Shown here: positions 31,166 through 50,298 of the stretch, one piece after another | How the letters are laid out: the number at the start of each line of letters is the position of its first letter | Position numbering within the stretch: position 1 is the stretch's first letter | The notes under the pieces: generated by a model | What the model was told of the DNA's origin: nothing | The model's input: only the letters and a program-made list of their open reading frames with translations | Database searches by the model: none | Position numbers and translations under genes: made by a program | Source: Planctomycetota bacterium | GTDB taxonomy: Bacteria; Planctomycetota; Phycisphaerae; UBA1845 | Direction: 5' to 3' | NCBI GenBank assembly: GCA_024280855.1 | Contig: JAJRPG010000068.1 | Span: 1-64,000 of the forward strand | DNA length: 64,000 bases

Positions 31166-34100
31166 CTAGTCTAATTCCTGGGAATCTGGAAATTCTTCAG
31201 AATCGTCCTCCTCAGAATCATCGACATAATCATCGTCGCAAGGTGACACACATGCGTCATCAATGACCAACGCAATTTCCTCAGCTAGGCCATGACCAGG
31301 ATTTGACACGGCTGCATCAACCATGATACCGCCAGTCGCAGCCGCAGCATCAGCAGCTAACGTCTTCACGCAATCGCTAGCTTGCATAGCTACGATGGGT
31401 GAAATGAGGACATCATTGGCCAGAGCGATGGCAATCGCGTTATCGATAGCACCACGATCGGCACCTGGATCATCGCATGGATCACCCATACATGGGCCTG
31501 CATTGCTGATCGGCACAACAATTCGTACAGCGCCTGGAACCCAATTATGCTCTTGAGCAACGATTGCTGTCGCTGGTCCCCAGTTTTTATCACGATCTGG
31601 ATTACGACCACTTACATTTGGCTCTACACCCCATAAATCACCTGGACAACCGTCTGGATCGCCTGGAACAGTCAGGCCATAAACATTGCCTACGTTGTCC
31701 CGCTCAAAAGAGATGCAGTCTGGAAGATCAGCACCCGAGAATGGCGCGATAGCCAATATCTCGAAATTCACTGTCGTACCCTGGTCTTCCAGGTCTGCGA
31801 CAACTTCAGCTATGCTATCACACATGGCATTACCAACTGATCGCATGGCATCGCCGGTATCCATCACAAACACAATGTCAACTGAAGGGCACTCTTTTTC
31901 AACTTCGCCACACAAGCACTCAGTGTCATTGATGTCTTTCATGACAGTTGCATGAGTAACGACTGGCTGATCAGAAACCTCAGTTTCATAGAACTCTGCA
32001 CCAGCGAAAGTATAGCAGCCACCATCCTCGAATGTTTCGAGCAAGTTCACTTCAAAAGCTAGGAAATCGCCTGGGTTCAAGTCATTAGGCAGACATAGAC
32101 CGTTAGCTGGATCTGTACCAGGGTTATTCAACGGCAGATCAACTACCAACAACGTACCGAAAGGCGAAGTTACTGGCGGAACATCAAGCTTGATGTAACG
32201 CTCATCACCATATGGTGTGATCGTTTGGCCATGAGAAGCGCGGAACGCATCCAATCGGAAAACAAAGCAACCATCCGTTGGTGGGCCATCTCTCCAGATG
32301 AACAGACGCATCGTAACAGGATTACCTGGATTATAACGTACAGGAATCGCTGTACGGAATGCCAGAACATCCACATCATCAGGACCACACTCACCAATAG
32401 CTGGCTCGCTAATGTCTACGATTGGTAGCGATGCTGCACCTACTGGAACTGAACCATAATTGCCGCCATCAATCGTGAAGAAGTCTTCTACGAAAACATC
32501 GAACAACGATGGGCCTGCTGGACCTTGTTCGCCCTGCTCACCATCTTGGCCATCACGACCGTCTTGGCCATCACTACCACGGCAGTCAAGAACATCGACG
32601 ACCTGATCGTGGTTGACATCTTCAGTCGCAAGATCAGCGATGCCGTCCTGATTAAGATCCCAGCAGTTGATACCATTCAAACCGTTGGTACCATCTTCGC
32701 CGTCTTCACCATCATCGCCTCGGCAGTCACGAACATCGACAAACTGGTCTTGGTTTACATCTTCAATCAGTTCAGCAATACCGTTTCCGTTCAAGTCCCA
32801 GCAATGCAAACCGTCATCGCCATCTTCACCGTCACGACCATCCTTGCCGCGACAATCCAATACGTTGACAAGCAAGTCCTGATTAAGGTCTTCGAAAGGT
32901 ACATCGCCAATGCCGTTACCGTTTAAGTCCCAGCAGTTTCGGCCATCTGTTCCATTAGTACCATTAGTACCATTAGTACCATTCGTACCATTCGTACCAT
33001 TGGTTCCGTTAGTACCATCTTCGCCACGACAATCCAAAACAGTGAAGAAACCGTCAAGGTTAATGTCTTCAGTCTGAAGATCGCCCATACCGTTGCCGTC
33101 GAGATCCCAACAGCTCAAACCATTCGTACCGTTTGTACCATTGGTTCCATTGGTTCCGTTGGTTCCATCAGTGCCGTCTTTGCCACGACAATCAGCAACT
33201 GTAAACATGTTGTCATTATTAATGTCTTCAGTAGCTAAATCTCCCATGCCATCGCCGTTCAGATCCCAACAATGCAAACCGTCTATACCATTCGTGCCAT
33301 CTCTTCCATCCTGGCCACGACAGTCACGAACATCGACAATCTGGTCGGCGTTAAGATCTTCTGCGAAATCTTTGACACCGTTAGCATTCAAATCCCAGCA
33401 GTTGATACCGTCAGTACCGTTGGTTCCATTAGTGCCGTTTGTACCATTGGTTCCGTTAGTGCCATCAGTGCCACGACAATCGCGGACATCAACAACTTGG
33501 TCACCATTCAAGTCTTCAGCGAAGTCCTTGATGCCATCGCCGTTGAGATCCCAGCAGTTCACACCATCAGTACCATTCGTTCCGTTAGTACCATTAGTAC
33601 CGTCCGTGCCGCGGCAGTCTCTGACGTCAACAAGATTGTCGCCGTTGACATCTTCAACAAAATCTTTGATACCGTCGGCATTAAGATCCCAACAGTTTAC
33701 GCCGTTCGTACCATCAGTACCGTTCGTACCGTTCGTACCATTCGTACCATTCGTGCCATCAGTACCATTAGTGCCGTTAGTTCCATTCGTACCGTTAGTT
33801 CCGTTAGCACCATTTGTACCTCGGCAATCTCGGGCATCAACAACTTCGTCGCCGTTTAGGTCTTCATCAAAATCTTTGATGCCGTTAGCATTGAGATCCC
33901 AACAGTCGATACCGTTGGTTCCATTTGTTCCGCTGGTGCCGTTGATACCATCTGCGCCAATACAGTCGCGCACATCTACAACGCCGTCTTCGTTAATGTC
34001 TTCGTTGAGTCCTGGTGATGGCACGCCAGCACCGAGCGCACGAATAGAAAGCGATTCGAATTGTTCGTCGATTACGGGGATATCGCCTATACCGTTGCCA

Positions 34101-34642
34101 TTAAGATCCCAGCAGTTCAGGCCATCATTACCTGGCTTGCCATCAATACCTGATGAACCTTCGCCACCGTTGCCACCGGCTGGTCCTGGTGTACCAGGCT
34201 GACCGTCAACGCCGTTGATACCATCGGCACCATTAGCGCCGTCTTGGCCATCGTTGCCTGCTACGCCGACGCCACCGCCGCCGCCTTGGCAATCGAGGGC
34301 GCTATATTCGCCGTCGCCATTGGTATCTTCATCCTCATCATTTTGGCCATTACCGTTAAGATCCCAGCAGCTAATGCCGTTAGCACCGGGTGTCCCCTGT
34401 CCAGCGGCGTCATCGCCACTGCCAATCCCGAATCCGAAAAAGCTGCCATCGTTAAGAATAGCTAAGCCCAGCGCTCCCAATAGTAAATCACGTTGATAAT
34501 CTTCTAGTCCTAGAAAATCGTTTCCACCGCAACCAACAATAGCGACTGGTGGTGTGGCAATCACAGCTGTTAGCATCATATAGCAGACAAACCGTTGGCC
34601 GATTGATCCCCGCGAGAGTTTCCTCTTTAGGCTACTCATCAT
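31166..34642 (-). CDS. Giant surface lipoprotein: collagen-like GXY triplets alternating with 11 Cys-bounded Asp/Asn-loop modules, C-terminal vWA-like domain
   Basis: 1158 residues. The N-terminus is a lipoprotein signal ending VGCGG. Residues about 85-690 alternate two units: collagen-like runs (mostly Gly-Thr-Asn, some Gly-Xaa-Asp) and 11 modules of about 30 residues, each opening CWDLN and closing DC(R/Q/I)G. Each module has two Asp/Asn-rich loops (DLNGNGIGD, then EDLNGDQVVD) like calcium-binding dockerin or thrombospondin type 3 loops, bounded by two Cys. Residues about 700-910 look like a beta domain; about 915-1125 resemble a von Willebrand A domain starting VDIVFVMDTGDAM, where the metal-site DxSxS is changed to DTGDA. 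The tail is acidic. GAGGAG precedes the start. Likely a long, calcium-stiffened adhesive or structural rod. Confidence 0.85.
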   Translation of the reverse strand: MMSSLKRKLSRGSIGQRFVCYMMLTAVIATPPVAIVGCGGNDFLGLEDYQRDLLLGALGLAILNDGSFFGFGIGSGDDAAGQGTPGANGISCWDLNGNGQNDEDEDTNGDGEYSALDCQGGGGGVGVAGNDGQDGANGADGINGVDGQPGTPGPAGGNGGEGSSGIDGKPGNDGLNCWDLNGNGIGDIPVIDEQFESLSIRALGAGVPSPGLNEDINEDGVVDVRDCIGADGINGTSGTNGTNGIDCWDLNANGIKDFDEDLNGDEVVDARDCRGTNGANGTNGTNGTNGTNGTDGTNGTNGTNGTNGTDGTNGVNCWDLNADGIKDFVEDVNGDNLVDVRDCRGTDGTNGTNGTNGTDGVNCWDLNGDGIKDFAEDLNGDQVVDVRDCRGTDGTNGTNGTNGTNGTNGTDGINCWDLNANGVKDFAEDLNADQIVDVRDCRGQDGRDGTNGIDGLHCWDLNGDGMGDLATEDINNDNMFTVADCRGKDGTDGTNGTNGTNGTNGTNGLSCWDLDGNGMGDLQTEDINLDGFFTVLDCRGEDGTNGTNGTNGTNGTNGTNGTNGTDGRNCWDLNGNGIGDVPFEDLNQDLLVNVLDCRGKDGRDGEDGDDGLHCWDLNGNGIAELIEDVNQDQFVDVRDCRGDDGEDGEDGTNGLNGINCWDLNQDGIADLATEDVNHDQVVDVLDCRGSDGQDGRDGQDGEQGEQGPAGPSLFDVFVEDFFTIDGGNYGSVPVGAASLPIVDISEPAIGECGPDDVDVLAFRTAIPVRYNPGNPVTMRLFIWRDGPPTDGCFVFRLDAFRASHGQTITPYGDERYIKLDVPPVTSPFGTLLVVDLPLNNPGTDPANGLCLPNDLNPGDFLAFEVNLLETFEDGGCYTFAGAEFYETEVSDQPVVTHATVMKDINDTECLCGEVEKECPSVDIVFVMDTGDAMRSVGNAMCDSIAEVVADLEDQGTTVNFEILAIAPFSGADLPDCISFERDNVGNVYGLTVPGDPDGCPGDLWGVEPNVSGRNPDRDKNWGPATAIVAQEHNWVPGAVRIVVPISNAGPCMGDPCDDPGADRGAIDNAIAIALANDVLISPIVAMQASDCVKTLAADAAAATGGIMVDAAVSNPGHGLAEEIALVIDDACVSPCDDDYVDDSEEDDSEEFPDSQELD
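32935..33830. repeat. 9-base tandem repeats encoding Gly-Thr-Asn triplets
   Basis: Within the collagen-like gene, blocks of a degenerate 9-base unit (on the plus strand, variants of ACCATTAGT or ACCGTTCGT) occur at about 32945-33020, 33117-33175, 33413-33475, 33553-33605 and 33694-33820. Third-position variation between units shows they are not freshly copied. Unit number probably varies between strains by slippage or recombination. Confidence 0.75.
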
Positions 34643-41679: not shown

Positions 41680-43203
41680 TCAGATAAATTTTATACGCTT
41701 AGCCGCAAAGACACACATACGTAGCAATAGCCAGCCATGACTAAATCGCGAAATATTTGTCTCACCGTAAGTTCTGGATTTATAATGAATGGGTACGTCC
41801 ACAATTTTCAAATTTAATCTAGCCGCGCCAAACAAAAGATCGAAATCGCCAAACGGATCAAAGTCGCCAAAATATGCACGATTTTTAGCTAATCGCTGGT
41901 AATCCAAACGGGTGAGAACTTTGGTACCGCACAACGTGTCTCTGAATCGTTGAGACAGTAAATAAGTAAACACCCAGGCAAAGGCGGTATTACCCAAGAA
42001 ATTGAGGAAGCGCATAGCTTCACGTTCCATCTGATAGACGAGTCGCGTCCCGTTGATAAATTCGCCACGACCACTAGCTAACATCGAGACGAATACGGGA
42101 AGTTCTTCAGGCGGCACGGATATGTCTGCATCCAAAATCATCAACACATCGCCAGTCGCAGCGTCAAACCCTTTGCGAACGGCGTCACCTTTTCCCTTAC
42201 CACTTTGCTGCATACACTTAATAATTAACGGGCCATCATAAGATGCCGCAGTTTCCTGAATCACATCCCAGGTATTATCCGTGCTGCCACCCTCAACGAA
42301 AATAAGCTCCTGATGGGGAGCCATGATGGGTAAGCGTTGAACAATTTCTTTAATGTGCCCCGCTTCATTCCTCGCAGGAACCACAATCGACACACTCTTA
42401 ACCGCTGTCGCAGGATGGGCCTCATCGGGTACGGGCCTGGTCACTAAAATATGCTGAGAACTTGCGCGGTGAACCAACGGAAGATGGGCGATGAATCGAT
42501 TCGCTATCGTCGAAAGCAAGGGGACATAAACCGGTAGCAATGCCAATCCAAACGAACGTATTGTTTCCAGTCCAGCTAAATCCGCCAAGCGCCGAACTTC
42601 ATCAAGCGGCACCAAATTACGAACAGAGTCTTTTTTTGCAGGCCAAAGCGAAACTGCGATTCGACGAGCCGTTCGCCAAAAAACGCCTTCATGAACTAAA
42701 ATTACCCGCGTACGATCGTGGCAGACACCCCGAACCGCTTCGAGCAAAGCATGTATATCGTAGACATCATCCATCACGTTTGAGATGATGACATAGTCAA
42801 ATGTATCCGATAAAGATCCAATATCCTCGCCACACAACTTCTTGAATCGCATAGTTGGATGTCGCTGTGCAGCCGCTCGAATCGCGTGGGCATCAATATC
42901 TACACCCACCCCAACCGATGGATTGAGCGAGGCTAATAATTCTCCTTGCCCACAACCAATTTCCAATACGCGGGCACCTGGCTCGACCATAGAAGCCAAA
43001 CGTTTATGGAGTAGCTTAGTATGATACCTTAGCTTAGCCCCTTTAGATTTCGCATACTTAGCTTCGTATTGAGACGCGACCGCATGCCGCCATTGGTTGG
43101 CATGATCGACAGTTCGCTCTGACGATGGAATGACACCCCGAGTTGGTGCCACATCCATGTCAACGTCTGGCACGTCCGATTTTACATCAAGAAATTGCTG
43201 CAT
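41680..43203 (-). CDS. Fusion of SAM-dependent methyltransferase and GT2 glycosyltransferase
   Basis: 507 residues. The N-terminal half is a class I methyltransferase with motif I VLEIGCGQGELL (79-90). The C-terminal half (about 268-507) is a family 2 glycosyltransferase: VSIVVPARNEAGHI, FVEGGSTDNTW and LMILDADISVPPEEL with the DxD-like DAD near 348, then LCGTKVLTR, close to dolichyl/polyprenyl-phosphate sugar transferases. One protein could join donor synthesis to methylation of the sugar or lipid. It precedes the GT-C enzyme with a 16-base gap, so the two look like a lipid-linked sugar synthesis and transfer unit. Confidence 0.87.
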   Translation of the reverse strand: MQQFLDVKSDVPDVDMDVAPTRGVIPSSERTVDHANQWRHAVASQYEAKYAKSKGAKLRYHTKLLHKRLASMVEPGARVLEIGCGQGELLASLNPSVGVGVDIDAHAIRAAAQRHPTMRFKKLCGEDIGSLSDTFDYVIISNVMDDVYDIHALLEAVRGVCHDRTRVILVHEGVFWRTARRIAVSLWPAKKDSVRNLVPLDEVRRLADLAGLETIRSFGLALLPVYVPLLSTIANRFIAHLPLVHRASSQHILVTRPVPDEAHPATAVKSVSIVVPARNEAGHIKEIVQRLPIMAPHQELIFVEGGSTDNTWDVIQETAASYDGPLIIKCMQQSGKGKGDAVRKGFDAATGDVLMILDADISVPPEELPVFVSMLASGRGEFINGTRLVYQMEREAMRFLNFLGNTAFAWVFTYLLSQRFRDTLCGTKVLTRLDYQRLAKNRAYFGDFDPFGDFDLLFGAARLNLKIVDVPIHYKSRTYGETNISRFSHGWLLLRMCVFAAKRIKFI

Positions 43204-43653: not shown

Positions 43654-45117
43654 TTGTCGCTCTCGCTTGATAAAATCGCAAGCGAACTCTATCACCAGAT
43701 AAACTATCTCGGCGACATCCAGGCCTCTTCCAACGCCGTGGCTTCGAGCTTGAGCTTGATTGAAGACGAAGGGTTAGACGCCAACTTCGCTCAGGTAACT
43801 GGCGAACTCATTCATGTGGCTCAAGAGGTCTGCACAGGCTGTCGCGCATCGCTCGAAGCATGTCGAGCTACCAAAGCAGTCCTTGATGCCTCTATCGAAT
43901 CGTTCGCGGACCTTCGCGCGACGTTTGAATCTTTAAGTACCGCTAAGGAAGGCATTGAAGAAGTATCTGATACAATTGTCGGATTCGCCGGACAGACAAC
44001 GCTATTAGCACTAAACGCCCGTATCGAAGCTGCCCGTGCGGGAGAAGCTGGCCTGGGCTTCGCCGTTGTCAGCGATGAAATCGGTAATCTGGCGCAACGC
44101 ATCAAGAACGAATCCGATACGATCCGAACGGCAGTATCAGATATTTCTGAGCACATTATCCGCGCGAGCGAACTCATTAAGGATGAAACATCCCGTGTAA
44201 ATGAGCAATCAAGCGCCGTCACCTCAATGGTCACCACCAACGAAAATCTCTTGAAGCAAGGCCAACGTCTACCGGACATGGTCGATCAGCTCGACTTGTT
44301 CCTGGAACCATTAGAACGTGCACGCGAAGCAGTAAGCCATAATCAGATGATTCAGGTTTCCGCGGGCAATGTGGAGCGAAATATCCAGAGCGCATACAAA
44401 GCGCTCTCTCGCAACAGATCGAAGAATTCATCTGACACACCCTCTTCTGAGTCCATCGTAGCTTTCGTAGATACGTTCTCGAAAATGTTAACCGAAGGTC
44501 GTGAAGCCCCCATCGATAAACTGCTTCAAAGCCTGATGGATAAAGGCATCCTTCCATTGGATTGCTTAAGCGCTATCGGTAAAGCCGTAGAAACCGCGAA
44601 CATGCGTCAAAAGCATCTTCACGTTTCCGTAGGCGACTACTACCTGAATTACCTGGCGGTCGAACAGGCCATTGGTTTTCTTGAACCTCATCTACCATCG
44701 ACACCTCCAACGAATATGAAGGTCGTGATCGGAAATGCCCGTGGCGATTATCATAGCCTAGGCCGGGAAATGGTGGGCATGTTCCTTCGCGCGTCCGGCA
44801 TCGAAGTCATTGACGTCGGGCTGGGCGTTGAAGTAGAAAAATTCGTCCAGGCCGTCACACAAAGCGGAGCCAAAGTGGTAGGCGTGTCTTCGTTATTGGT
44901 TGAGTCTGCTAAGGAAATCTCCAAAATCCGCACCATGCTCGACCAACGAGGACATCATCAAACCAAAATCGTCGCAGGCGGCGCTTGCTTCGTTGTAGAT
45001 CGAGATTTTTACAAAGAGGTACGCGCGGATTACGTCGCAACCTCAGCCAGCGACATGATTGGGCTGGTGCAGCAAATATATAAGCATGGTCCACTGGACG
45101 CGGAGTCGTCACAATGA
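43654..45117 (+). CDS. Soluble MCP-type signalling domain fused to a cobalamin-binding domain
   Basis: 487 residues if started at TTG 43654; no better in-frame start exists because TGA stops the frame at 43627. Residues about 70-200 form a methyl-accepting chemotaxis hairpin with the canonical tip [20 protein letters not shown] (about 117-136); there is no membrane helix or sensor domain. Residues about 275-345 look like the helical cap of cobalamin proteins, and about 355-470 the B12-binding Rossmann domain with DYHSLG (Asp365, His367, Gly370), VSSLLVES and VAGGAC. His367 would bind cobalt from below. Three Cys lie at about residues 70-80 ([12 protein letters not shown]). The TGA/ATG overlap couples it to a UroD-fold gene. 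A -1 shift at the A8 run (43632-43639) would give an ATG-started, longer protein. Confidence 0.82.
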
Positions 45118-46190
45118 ATTCTATCCAACGCGTATTAGCCTCCCTTACCTTCGGTAAATCCGAGCATGGATTGCCCGACCGTATACCCACATTTCCCGTA
45201 CCTCTCATGCAAGGCGCACTCGTATACAAATGCACCGTAGCGGAGTACTTCGCGATGCCAGCGACAAAAATCGCTGAAGCCCAAGTACAAATTAACCAAA
45301 TGTACGACGGTATTCCAGACGGTGTAGCTGGCATCCCCAACGTCATTCAAGACGTGACGGCTTTCGGTCTAGGCTTGAAATACCATTATCAAAACAGCAC
45401 GCCCGCCGTTGACGGCATGTGCATACATAATTTCGACGACATCCAATCGCTGCCAACGCCATCTTATGAAAAATCCCCTACGCTACGAAAAACGTGCGAT
45501 ATTATTTCCACACTAGCTTCAGGCATTGGTAAAGAAAAAGTCGTCATAGGCGCAGCTATCGCACCATTCTCGTTGCCCAGCATGATTATGGGCACGTCAA
45601 AATGGATGCGACTTTTATTTACACCCAAATTGCGTGATCGGCACTTCCACCGCATCATGGGCATATGCAAAACTTTCGTGATTGAATGGGCTAATGCACA
45701 GCTTCAAGCCGGCGCTCACGTCGTCATCCTGGCAGACGGGATGGCCTCGGCGACCATGTTGCCCCGAAACATGTTCCAACGATACGCACTACCTGTCATC
45801 AAGGACACCATCGCAGCCATCAACGGCATGGTCGCCTACGAAGCGGTTGGTTGTATTGAACCGTTTATAGATTGCTTTAGCGATGCTGGGGCGATAGCTA
45901 TGTTAATCGGCGAGGAAGATGATATTGGCAAATGTAAGCAAGCGCTTCAGGGGAAAGTCGGTGTCATTGGCAATGTCAATAATATGAAAATGCGACGATG
46001 GTCTCCTGCCCGCATCGAATTGCAAGCCAAATCTGCCATTCGACAGGGCAAGCCGGGCTATGGATTTATCCTGGCGAACCAAGGGCCTGAAATTCCGTTT
46101 GATGTGAGCCTGGAAGGCATCGGCGCACTCATTCGTTCCGTTGAAAAATACGGACGATACGAGCCAGCCGCCGAACTTGCATTAGCGTAA
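45114..46190 (+). CDS. UroD/MtaA-fold protein with apparently lost zinc ligands
   Basis: 358 residues of the uroporphyrinogen-decarboxylase superfamily, which includes corrinoid-dependent methyltransferases such as MtaA and MtbA. Overall order fits: an early PVPLMQGA, the middle [26 protein letters not shown] and the closing [21 protein letters not shown]. In MtaA/MtbA types a His-x-Cys motif before the ...DAGA helix and a later Cys bind zinc and activate a thiol. Aligned by eye, these positions here are Glu, Val and Gly, so it may not be a classical thiol methyltransferase. It overlaps the MCP-cobalamin gene by 4 bases and probably binds it. Its own end overlaps the convergent protease-like gene by 9 bases. 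Confidence 0.8.
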
Positions 46191-47329: not shown

Positions 47330-47406
47330 CTGAATTCCCGGGTGTCTAATCAGGCGTGGATGAGCGAAATTTCAGTACCGAAGTGAATAAATATAGGAGT
47401 AGTGTA

Positions 47407-48732
47407 ATGAAAAGAGCGTATCGATGTTTGGCGATAGTTGTGGTCATTGGTTGCCAGCTGAATTTTGCGAGTATGGCGGTGGGGCAGATTTCGGCAGCTC
47501 AAAACAAGCTGCTTGCGAAGCGGGCGGCGGAGGCAGACGGCTATCGTAAGTTGGCTGAAACGGTCTACGGTGTGCAATTAAACTCAGATACTTATGTGCG
47601 TGATTTCGTGACCGAATCAGATGAAATTCGCACCGCGATGAGCCATTACATCAAAGGAATCCGCTTTGGTACGCCTCGCTATTACGATGACGGGGTCTGT
47701 GAGCTTGATGCCGAAGTGACCGTCTCCAAGTTGATTACCCACCTCAAAGAAGTTCACAAAACGTATTATCGCGGCAACCATATTTCTACAACAGATATTG
47801 AAAACGTAACTCAATACCTCAAGAAAGACGTTATTCGCGTAACAGGCATGGGCGCACCTCGGCCTGAGTTGCCACCAGGACTCCCAGAAGGCATCGAAGA
47901 AATTCTCACGCCATTGCCACCAGGCGTTTCGGCGTCGCGGATGTCGGTTCCTGCGATTTGGAAGACTATCCCCCCCCAAGCAAGACTCATGGCTATTCGG
48001 GCCGCCCGCGTCGATGCGATGCGACGCCTGCTGGAAGAAATCAAAGGCTTGCGATTGAATTCGAGTACGCTAGTACGAGATTTCATGACAGAATTTGATG
48101 AAATCAGCGCCAATGCCAGTGGCTTGGTTATTGGTGCGACTGAGGTGAGTACTTACCTGCATAATGACGAACTCATCGCTGAAGTTGTGATGGAAGTCCC
48201 CCTGTCCAAAGTTGTCACTCGTATCTCAGAATTGCACAAGCAGCATTACCACGGCAGTCATGTAAACACTCAAGATATTGTGAACATCAAGAAAAATGTA
48301 GTGCGGACTTCTGTTCGTGCAACTGGTTCGGGCGTGGCACCTAGTCGTTTCCAGGCGAAAGCTGTTCAGGCGGGCTACGAATCGCCTAGTTGGATGGCCA
48401 CGCGAATCGAAGTTTATGGCGAGGGAACAGACCCTCAAATCGGCAGCTCTGCCCAAGGTCGCCTCAAGGCCGCTCGCGCAGCCACTATAGATGGTTATAG
48501 AAAACTAGCGGAGAATGTATACGGGTTGAGTATAAATTCCAGCACGACTGTGCGGGATTTCATACTTGAATATGATGATATTTCAACGCAGCTAGACGCT
48601 GTCATACGCGGTGCAACTTCTGACGAAGCCGTATTCGAGAGCGGTATAGCGCGTGTGAAAGTTTCGATGCCAGCGGCTGAGGTTTGGACGGTTGTACATC
48701 AGCAAAAACTGATAATTTCTCGACGTGGGTAG
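47407..48732 (+). CDS. Secreted protein with three LPP20-like repeats
   Basis: I start at ATG 47407 (TAGGAG upstream; signal peptide MKRAYRC...FASMAVGQ); an earlier in-frame start at 47356 lacks these. The 441-residue product has three copies of an LPP20-like unit: AAQNKLLAKRAAEADGYRKLAETVYGVQLNSDTYVRDF, AIRAARVDAMRRLLEEIKGLRLNSSTLVRDF and RLKAARAATIDGYRKLAENVYGLSINSSTTVRDF, each ending in a short beta part. LPP20 proteins and the Vibrio FlgP protein are outer-membrane lipoproteins of cell-surface or flagellar rings. Here no lipobox is seen. The next two genes, a small lipoprotein and an FlgT-like protein, suggest an envelope complex. Confidence 0.75.
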   Translation: MKRAYRCLAIVVVIGCQLNFASMAVGQISAAQNKLLAKRAAEADGYRKLAETVYGVQLNSDTYVRDFVTESDEIRTAMSHYIKGIRFGTPRYYDDGVCELDAEVTVSKLITHLKEVHKTYYRGNHISTTDIENVTQYLKKDVIRVTGMGAPRPELPPGLPEGIEEILTPLPPGVSASRMSVPAIWKTIPPQARLMAIRAARVDAMRRLLEEIKGLRLNSSTLVRDFMTEFDEISANASGLVIGATEVSTYLHNDELIAEVVMEVPLSKVVTRISELHKQHYHGSHVNTQDIVNIKKNVVRTSVRATGSGVAPSRFQAKAVQAGYESPSWMATRIEVYGEGTDPQIGSSAQGRLKAARAATIDGYRKLAENVYGLSINSSTTVRDFILEYDDISTQLDAVIRGATSDEAVFESGIARVKVSMPAAEVWTVVHQQKLIISRRG

Positions 48733-48767
48733 ACATTGGTTAATCTAAATATTTAAGGAGTGTTGTC

Positions 48768-48989
48768 ATGATAAAAAGAAATGGTTTACTCAGAACATCA
48801 ACGTTATTCGTATTGGGCTTTGGCTTGGGTTGCGTATTATTGGGGTGCGAAACTTCCTCCCATACAACGGTGCGCACTTTTGAATACACCAATGAGCCGG
48901 TGAAAACACAAGAGCCTGTGGATATGTCGTCTGGTGAATATCGGATGGAATCCCCTGGCAAAATGGTGGTGGACCCGAGTCGCCACTAA
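48768..48989 (+). CDS. Small lipoprotein
   Basis: 73 residues with AAGGAG upstream and a lipobox LLGC (about residue 26) after a basic start and a hydrophobic stretch FVLGFGLGCVL. The mature part is only about 45 residues, rich in Thr, Ser and Glu. It sits 35 bases after the triple LPP20-like gene and 163 bases before the FlgT-like gene, in the same direction. Its role is unknown; small lipoproteins of this kind may assist outer-membrane ring assembly. Confidence 0.65.
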   Translation: MIKRNGLLRTSTLFVLGFGLGCVLLGCETSSHTTVRTFEYTNEPVKTQEPVDMSSGEYRMESPGKMVVDPSRH

Positions 48990-49079
48990 TCATGGATGAA
49001 GTTGCACATAGCTTTTCAACTCGACTTACAAAGTGATTGAGTGAAAGCTGCTCAGGTATTGGGACATCCCGTCAAAACT

Positions 49080-49102
49080 GGATTCCCGCCTGCGCGGGAA
49101 TG
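49080..49102. repeat. Second copy of the REP-like arm
   Basis: 23 of 24 bases match the right arm of the element at 11555-11578, on the same strand orientation; the last base differs. It includes the internal palindrome CCCGC-CTGC-GCGGG. It lies 50 bases before the FlgT-like start, so it is in or near that gene's leader. Confidence 0.7.
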
Positions 49103-49152
49103 GCTGCCTGGTAGCATTAGCAGAAAAAGTTTATACGGAGATGAATTACATA

Positions 49153-50298
49153 ATGTACTGTTTGAAACGCTTCACGATAGTCCAACTAAGTTTGATTTTG
49201 TTTCTAGGCCAGGCGGCGTTTGCGACAAGCGACGGCGTGTGGGTCGAAGACAAAGGCACTGGCATCACTGAAGAGGCTGCGATGCGGGACGCTATGCGAA
49301 ACGCCCTGGGCCAAGGTGCGGGGCTGGAGATAAGCTCGCATTCTCGAACTGAAAATTTTGAATTGATTCGAGATGCGGTTTACGCACGGGCTGATGGTTT
49401 GGTTAGCCAGGTCAAACCGCTAGGCTGTAAACCGGCAGTCGGCGGCTTGGTATCATGCCGCATTCGAGCTTTCGTTAGAGGGGCAGATGTAAAAGCTTCT
49501 TGGGGAGAAATACAAAACGTCCTCGATCAAATTGGTAGGCCTAGCATTATGGTCTATATCAAAGAAACGATCGACGGCTTGCCGCAAGAGAGTAGCATAT
49601 TGGAAACGCACATCGAAAACCGCTTCACCCAAATGGGATTCGATCTTTATGCGCGTACCCAACTAAAAGCTATAGAAAAAAAGGAAATGGATGACGCGGC
49701 GATCAGCAACAATGTTTCCAAGATGCAGGCCATCGCCAAGAATTTTAATGCGCAGATTTTCATCACCGGCCATGCCAATACCAATGCTGCAGGCTCGAAA
49801 GTTTTGGCTGGGCAAAGGACGGCGATGTATAATGCGGATGGCGTGCTAAAAATGTACTACACTGATACGGGAAAGCTCATCACCTCTGAACCTTTAACCA
49901 ACTGTCGAGGAGGCGTACGCACCGATTTCGCCGGTTCCGCTCAAGGAGGCAGAAAGGCGCTACTCAATTGCGGCGTGGAGTTAGCTGAAAATCTGTATTG
50001 GAGTGCGATGAAAAGCTGGTCCACGCAAATCTCCTATGGCGGGACTATTGTGCTTGAAGTTGAAGGCATTTCAGCAGTCGAGGCTATCAAGATCAAGAAA
50101 AATCTTATGTCAGCTGCTTTGGGAAAAATCCAAAGCATCAACAAATCCTTCTCCAAACGAATAGGTACATTTCGTATTAAAACGACATTGTCCTCAGACG
50201 ATTTGATCGAAATTCTTTCAGAGGGGTACTTCGTGAATATTCTGGAAGTCATGGATCAGCAGATGGGGAGAATCCAGGCCGTCCACGTTGATGATTAA
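49153..50298 (+). CDS. Secreted protein with FlgT-N-like and TolB-N/CsgG-like domains
   Basis: About 381 residues from ATG 49153 with signal peptide MYCLKRFTIVQLSLILFLGQAAFA; ATG 49141 is also in frame but touches the GGAG with no spacing. Residues about 28-115 follow the FlgT-N / LPP20-like pattern (GTGITEEAAMRDAMRNALGQGAGLEIS). The middle (about 130-270) resembles a lipoprotein/TolB-N fold seen in LpoB and FlgT middle domains (IMVYIKETIDGL, NAQIFITGHANT). The last part (about 285-380) is alpha/beta with no clear match. FlgT in Vibrio forms the H ring of the flagellum; a similar envelope-ring role is possible. No other flagellar genes are here. Confidence 0.68.
   Translation: MYCLKRFTIVQLSLILFLGQAAFATSDGVWVEDKGTGITEEAAMRDAMRNALGQGAGLEISSHSRTENFELIRDAVYARADGLVSQVKPLGCKPAVGGLVSCRIRAFVRGADVKASWGEIQNVLDQIGRPSIMVYIKETIDGLPQESSILETHIENRFTQMGFDLYARTQLKAIEKKEMDDAAISNNVSKMQAIAKNFNAQIFITGHANTNAAGSKVLAGQRTAMYNADGVLKMYYTDTGKLITSEPLTNCRGGVRTDFAGSAQGGRKALLNCGVELAENLYWSAMKSWSTQISYGGTIVLEVEGISAVEAIKIKKNLMSAALGKIQSINKSFSKRIGTFRIKTTLSSDDLIEILSEGYFVNILEVMDQQMGRIQAVHVDD

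Follow-up and report, generated by a model that had tools for sequence, protein, structure and literature searches.

The window, meaning the whole 64-kb stretch of DNA analysed, belongs to a planctomycete assembly of 4.56 Mb in 112 contigs, and carries a pair of genes on its forward strand. The first (43654..45117) encodes a 487 aa soluble chemoreceptor-corrinoid fusion from a TTG start, and the second (45114..46190) encodes a 358 aa partner of the UroD/MtaA fold in which the zinc ligands are missing. Both open reading frames are real, and they overlap by four bases (ATGA), as an earlier note on this DNA had claimed.

Domain composition of the two proteins

The fusion consists of an MCP signalling hairpin (about residues 2–256), a linker, a set of cap helices (residues 268–346) and a B12-binding Rossmann domain (residues 355–478). 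Pfam MCPsignal matches residues 83–218 (E = 1.2e-22), with a score of 81 bits that passes the curated cut-off of 34.6, and Pfam B12-binding matches residues 355–462 (E = 7.8e-19). Sequence searches against solved structures matched the C-terminal part to corrinoid proteins and methionine synthase, the corrinoid match reaching back to residue 274 and so taking in the cap helices. The chemoreceptor tip (residues 117–140; 44002..44073, + strand) has an E-A-A-R-A-G core that is invariant in seven aligned fusions, and two other MCPs encoded in the genome each match it at 29 of 40 residues of this region. A membrane segment is absent (peak 19-residue hydropathy 1.37), and Pfam detected no other sensor domain in the protein. 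The Pfam, hydropathy and tip results thus bear out the earlier description of an MCP signalling domain with a complete tip, standing free of any membrane or sensor domain.

The corrinoid-binding motif, N361-A-R-G-D365-Y-H367-S-L-G370 (44734..44763, + strand), is of the base-off/His-on type (DxHxxG); Asp365, His367 and Gly370 are the residues that the earlier note had named, and the DxHxxG motif is invariant across the aligned fusions. Residues 442–451 (44977..45006, + strand) carry a signature common to kinase-linked B12 domains (GGAPFxFD), in a segment two residues longer than its counterpart in corrinoid proteins beside zinc-bearing enzymes. All features of the corrinoid class (cap helices, Rossmann domain, DxHxxG and GG) are present. 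In the predicted structure (mean pLDDT 75.2), a single long antiparallel hairpin turns at residue 129 and is followed by the linker, the cap (268–346) and the Rossmann domain (356–478). Foldseek matched this model to methionine synthase, corrinoid proteins, photocobilins and chemoreceptor cytoplasmic domains, with a further similarity of the corrinoid domain to the light-sensitive MerR-family B12 domain. Judged by sequence and model, neither the MCP domain nor the corrinoid domain lacks any part, and the fusion would be expected to bind cobalamin.

The partner protein matches Pfam URO-D (E = 1.4e-40). Its top NCBIfam models are those of methylcobalamin:CoM methyltransferases and MtaA-CmuA, with scores (97 to 71 bits) far under the respective cut-offs (235 to 600); for TIGR01463 the score is 77.8 bits against a cut-off of 235.4, which is not passed. 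The position of the MtaA-type His-x-Cys ligands is occupied by AYEAVG (residues 241–246; 45834..45851, + strand), with Glu243 for His and Val245 for Cys, and the position of the third ligand, also Cys, lies in ANQGPEIP (residues 321–328; 46074..46097, + strand), where it is replaced by Pro325. In the alignment all three ligands are replaced in all eight pairs described below, and the position of Glu243 is invariant in these pairs and in their three nearest relatives. Four controls in the same alignment (L012, L050, L059 and L061) retain the zinc ligands as HICG followed by a later GC or ACG. This alignment, which the earlier note had proposed as a check, confirms its impression that the His, Cys and Cys ligands are missing. 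The predicted structure of the partner is weak (mean pLDDT 58.8) and matches UroD and MtaA (4ay7) structures. The RQAGR segment of HemE holds substrate-binding arginines. The only other URO-D match in the window genome, a strong one (1.9e-93), is read as hemE, and comparison with it places PLMQGALVY where the partner would carry RQAGR; a uroporphyrinogen decarboxylase (HemE) identity was rejected on the loss of these N-terminal arginines.

Distribution and genomic context of the pair

Eight planctomycete genomes, namely that of the window and seven more, carry this fusion with the partner gene after it, which answers the earlier note's call for a search for such fusions beside UroD-fold genes. 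The ATGA overlap is found in 8/8 pairs. Identity among the aligned members is 65–72% for the partner and 49–60% for the fusion; a large part of the partner does not vary among the seven aligned members, and the chemoreceptor tip is kept in all aligned fusions. Because the pair is retained in eight genomes at these levels of identity, its arrangement is not a chance one. The pair is seldom encountered and its occurrence is patchy: among 298 genomes sampled evenly from the same class, a close relative was found in the window genome and two others only, and two genomes of the same genus in this sample had none. The named relatives are Phycisphaerales and other Planctomycetota MAGs. The genome searches covered the window's phylum, and the queries of one species-wide scan were peptides stringent enough to detect close relatives only. 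No relatives were found among viral contigs with the sequence patterns used, and no plasmid match to the MCP-B12 fusion covered 80% of the protein.

The genes flanking the pair vary between loci, and no conserved neighbour names a ligand. Nothing marks the pair as recently acquired foreign DNA, since its G+C and third-position G+C are close to those of the resident ftsY, ftsK and mutL genes. A role in phage defence was considered and set aside when PADLOC gave no match. Divergent from the pair, at 41680-43203 (−), lies a gene for a protein that combines class I methyltransferase and family 2 glycosyltransferase domains. On its other side, at 47356-50298 (+), are two adjoining proteins, one with LPP20 repeats and the other with a weak FlgT_N match (E = 0.012), which are possibly related to envelope or flagellar assembly. 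Further away, at 31166-34642 (−), lies a long protein in which repeated CWDLNGNG-like segments are separated by numerous Gly-rich repeats, Asn-Gly-Thr among them.

The earlier note had also observed that mtaB, che genes and riboswitches do not adjoin the pair. A search of the window agreed on all three, its sole Rfam match being a tRNA and not a B12 riboswitch. The host is a flagellated planctomycete, with CheW-family and fliG genes elsewhere in its genome. CheW-domain genes are present in 7/7 pair genomes tested (G867 lay outside this set), and FliG is found in 8/8. No MtaB or MttB-type gene and no RACo/RamA-type activase (PF14574) was detected in the eight pair genomes, all of which are apparently MAGs or draft assemblies, and each of the three families was detected in the Methanosarcina acetivorans control; the substrate methyltransferase search covered the MtaB and MttB types, with the MtmB and MtbB families outside it. 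Because these genes are missing from the eight genomes, a standard catabolic methyltransferase system is unlikely, and the full methyltransferase set that the earlier note had held out as the sign of an ordinary system was not encountered. On the zinc-site alignment and the genome searches together, an ordinary methyltransferase operon was rejected. Steady methyl turnover in the chemoreceptor version is likewise unlikely, as the genomes searched encode no activase of the RACo/RamA type; sensing by a single turnover or by ligand binding fits better.

Zinc-less relatives beside kinases

When 392 genomes of the phylum were searched with a profile, distant relatives of the partner were recovered. 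Wherever the upstream gene could be read it encodes a B12 domain, or else the two are fused (L045). DUF1638-type histidine kinases, with the DUF1638 domain either fused or encoded separately, lie beside L045, L046, L047 and L057, and at L044 a Ser/Thr kinase gene adjoins the zinc-less UroD and B12 genes. The N-terminal domain of the L046 kinase has no Pfam match and was related to that of L045 by a single BLAST comparison (22% identity, E = 3e-26). Genetic evidence connects DUF1638 proteins with B12-dependent methionine synthesis, and they are found together with a RamA-like activase (PMC5764234; see also PMC12478193).

A similar module was found by tblastn of plasmids on pAZKH of Azoarcus sp. 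KH32C, where genes for a cobalamin-dependent protein, a UroD-family protein and a histidine kinase follow one another. The UroD-family protein is 33% identical to the partner, and its gene overlaps that of the cobalamin-dependent protein by 4 bases; the N-terminal domain of the kinase gives a sub-threshold DUF1638 match and aligns with the L045 domain. Genes for formylmethanofuran dehydrogenase and quinoprotein-dehydrogenase-associated proteins are no more than 8 kb from this module.

The zinc ligands are lost in all of the aligned kinase-linked UroD relatives, including that of Azoarcus. In the UroD tree the zinc-less proteins form one group (support 100/99), inside which the MCP-linked set is itself a single group (100/99). 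The B12 domains of the zinc-less sets have DxHx[LM]G[RK] and GGxxFxxD in common, as opposed to the HDIGKN form found beside zinc-bearing enzymes; the DxHx[LM]G[RK] form occurs in the fusion, in kinase-linked proteins and in other sensor-type B12 proteins. The matching B12 domains group together in their own tree (93/95), in which several lie on long branches that drew a warning from the tree tool. On the strength of sequence comparison, the MCP-linked and kinase-linked modules share a common ancestry. The sensory link is not universal in these data: no signalling gene was recognised beside two B12-only relatives, L032 and L033, which lie on short contigs.

Several other loci were noted in the course of these searches. 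L047 and L057 encode a second zinc-less UroD type (FYCGG/YYCGG) together with B12, separate DUF1638 and PAS-kinase genes, and a RACo-type gene fragment lies near L057. L059, L061 and similar loci, found in one class of the phylum, are ordinary zinc-bearing methyltransferase pairs and were set aside. The Thiodictyon plasmid pTs417 (L049, 4326-9323) encodes in a row a B12 protein, a UroD-family protein, an ASKHA-domain protein and a GAF-GGDEF diguanylate cyclase. The UroD-family protein of L049 has lost the first Cys but retains the His and third Cys, and the tree places it outside the zinc-less group. L049 was therefore not counted as a member; it may be a related sensor with another output. 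L058 and L060 (genomes G525 and G586) are unusual enzyme-activase fusions, in which a UroD-fold domain is joined to a ferredoxin-like and activase-like region; the zinc site is partly lost (WYSVAG) with the third Cys kept, and at L058 a B12 protein gene lies upstream.

Functional interpretation

The pair is probably a cytoplasmic corrinoid-based sensor, derived from MtaA/MtaC-type methyltransferases and plugged into a chemoreceptor. Because in other bacteria the same two parts adjoin signalling proteins of different kinds, the zinc-less UroD and B12 proteins look like reusable B12-based sensor parts rather than a methyl-using enzyme, and a sensory role gains independent support from the zinc-less, B12-paired relatives that adjoin kinases and group with the window protein. 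In the mechanism we propose, the zinc-less UroD-fold protein would dock on the fusion's B12 domain in the way that MtaA-type enzymes dock on their corrinoid proteins. There it would bind a small molecule or transfer a methyl group, and the bound corrinoid would change in upper ligand or in conformation. The linker would then relay the movement of the cap and Rossmann domain to the MCP hairpin, and the hairpin would control the CheA/CheW kinase and hence swimming. On the simplest account, a methyltransferase-derived pair would have lost its zinc chemistry and become a sensory input, joined to kinases in several lineages and to a chemoreceptor hairpin once. The earlier note had suggested sensing in place of catabolic methyl transfer; this part is supported by the zinc loss, the lack of a catabolic set and the kinase-linked relatives, and we infer the ligand, the docking, the direction of signalling and the coupling to a CheA/CheW array. 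The Azoarcus neighbourhood and the ancestry of the proteins point to a C1 or methylated compound, read as a methyl-corrinoid state, as a guess at the signal.

The main rival, and a serious one, is that the pair senses cobalamin itself (its presence, its adenosyl or methyl form, or its redox state), with the partner as a non-enzymatic adaptor. The loss of the zinc site and the lack of a reductive activase fit such ligand sensing without turnover, but the kinase-linked relatives are tied through DUF1638 to corrinoid chemistry (a RamA-like protein and methionine synthesis; PMC5764234), L057 has its neighbouring RACo-type gene, and the Azoarcus module lies near C1 genes; we regard cobalamin sensing as unlikely. 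Less likely still is a working zinc-free corrinoid methyltransferase in which the MCP part would serve dimerisation or clustering only: such an enzyme would agree with the intact corrinoid module and UroD fold and with the many invariant residues of the partner, but not with a tip conserved in every aligned fusion, the want of RACo/RamA, MtaB and MttB-type genes in the eight genomes, or the link of zinc-less relatives to kinases. A chemoreceptor for light, analogous to CarH and the photocobilins, is very improbable despite the similar fold of the corrinoid domain to photocobilins and to the light-sensitive MerR-family B12 domain, as the GxxW, EH, GxxH and GxxxP signature of CarH-type sensors (PMC11796333) is not carried by the fusions, which have no tryptophan in 7/7 aligned members and DY at the EH position in 6/7.

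Read as a corrinoid-based sensor, the pair can be set beside several known systems. It resembles the methylcobamide:CoM methyltransferases of the UroD superfamily (MtaA, MtbA and CmuA) with MtaC and MtbC in fold, in best NCBIfam models and in its pairing with a corrinoid domain; unlike these, it has all three zinc ligands replaced, scores well below the family cut-offs and occurs in genomes lacking an MtaB/MttB-type methyltransferase or activase. With cytoplasmic MCP chemoreceptors the fusion shares a soluble signalling hairpin and a conserved CheA/CheW-contacting tip, but its C-terminal sensor is a corrinoid module to which a second protein, from an overlapping gene, belongs. Light and gene regulation are the main settings in which B12-based sensing is known. 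CarH, the photocobilins and AppA/AerR, with their B12- or heme-binding sensory domains, likewise use a B12-type signalling domain of similar fold, and the pair differs from them in output, in its partner protein and in the missing light signature. The DUF1638-type kinase modules of Azoarcus KH32C pAZKH and of planctomycetes have the same two sensor parts and share their ancestry, but their output is a kinase, and no DUF1638 gene was seen alongside the MCP set. The MtpA/B/C methylotaxis MCPs of Methylobacterium aquaticum are also chemoreceptors tied to C1 metabolism, their sensing being linked to methanol dehydrogenases and formaldehyde, and the passages describing them make no mention of a corrinoid module (PMC10613068). 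The nearest family survey, of MtaA-like (mlp) gene clusters, is likewise silent on sensors and chemotaxis in its main text (PMC10418091). The open-access literature searched, outside which most subscription journals lie, yielded no description of MCP-B12 fusions or of UroD-B12-kinase modules.

More tentatively, these proteins may represent a general class of bacterial sensor, in which a corrinoid methyl-transfer pair (MtaA-like and MtaC-like) has been turned into a zinc-free receiver of the methyl-corrinoid state that is interchangeable among histidine kinases, Ser/Thr kinases and chemoreceptors, and by which the swimming of the window's planctomycete would respond to a methylated or C1 compound. 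If the corrinoid-sensor reading is correct, a two-part sensor derived from a methyltransferase would couple movement and phospho-signalling directly to C1 and methyl metabolism, and would provide an example of an enzyme pair turned receptor. Some of the proteins that at present bear no annotation beyond "uroporphyrinogen decarboxylase family" or "cobalamin-dependent protein" would then gain a function open to experiment.
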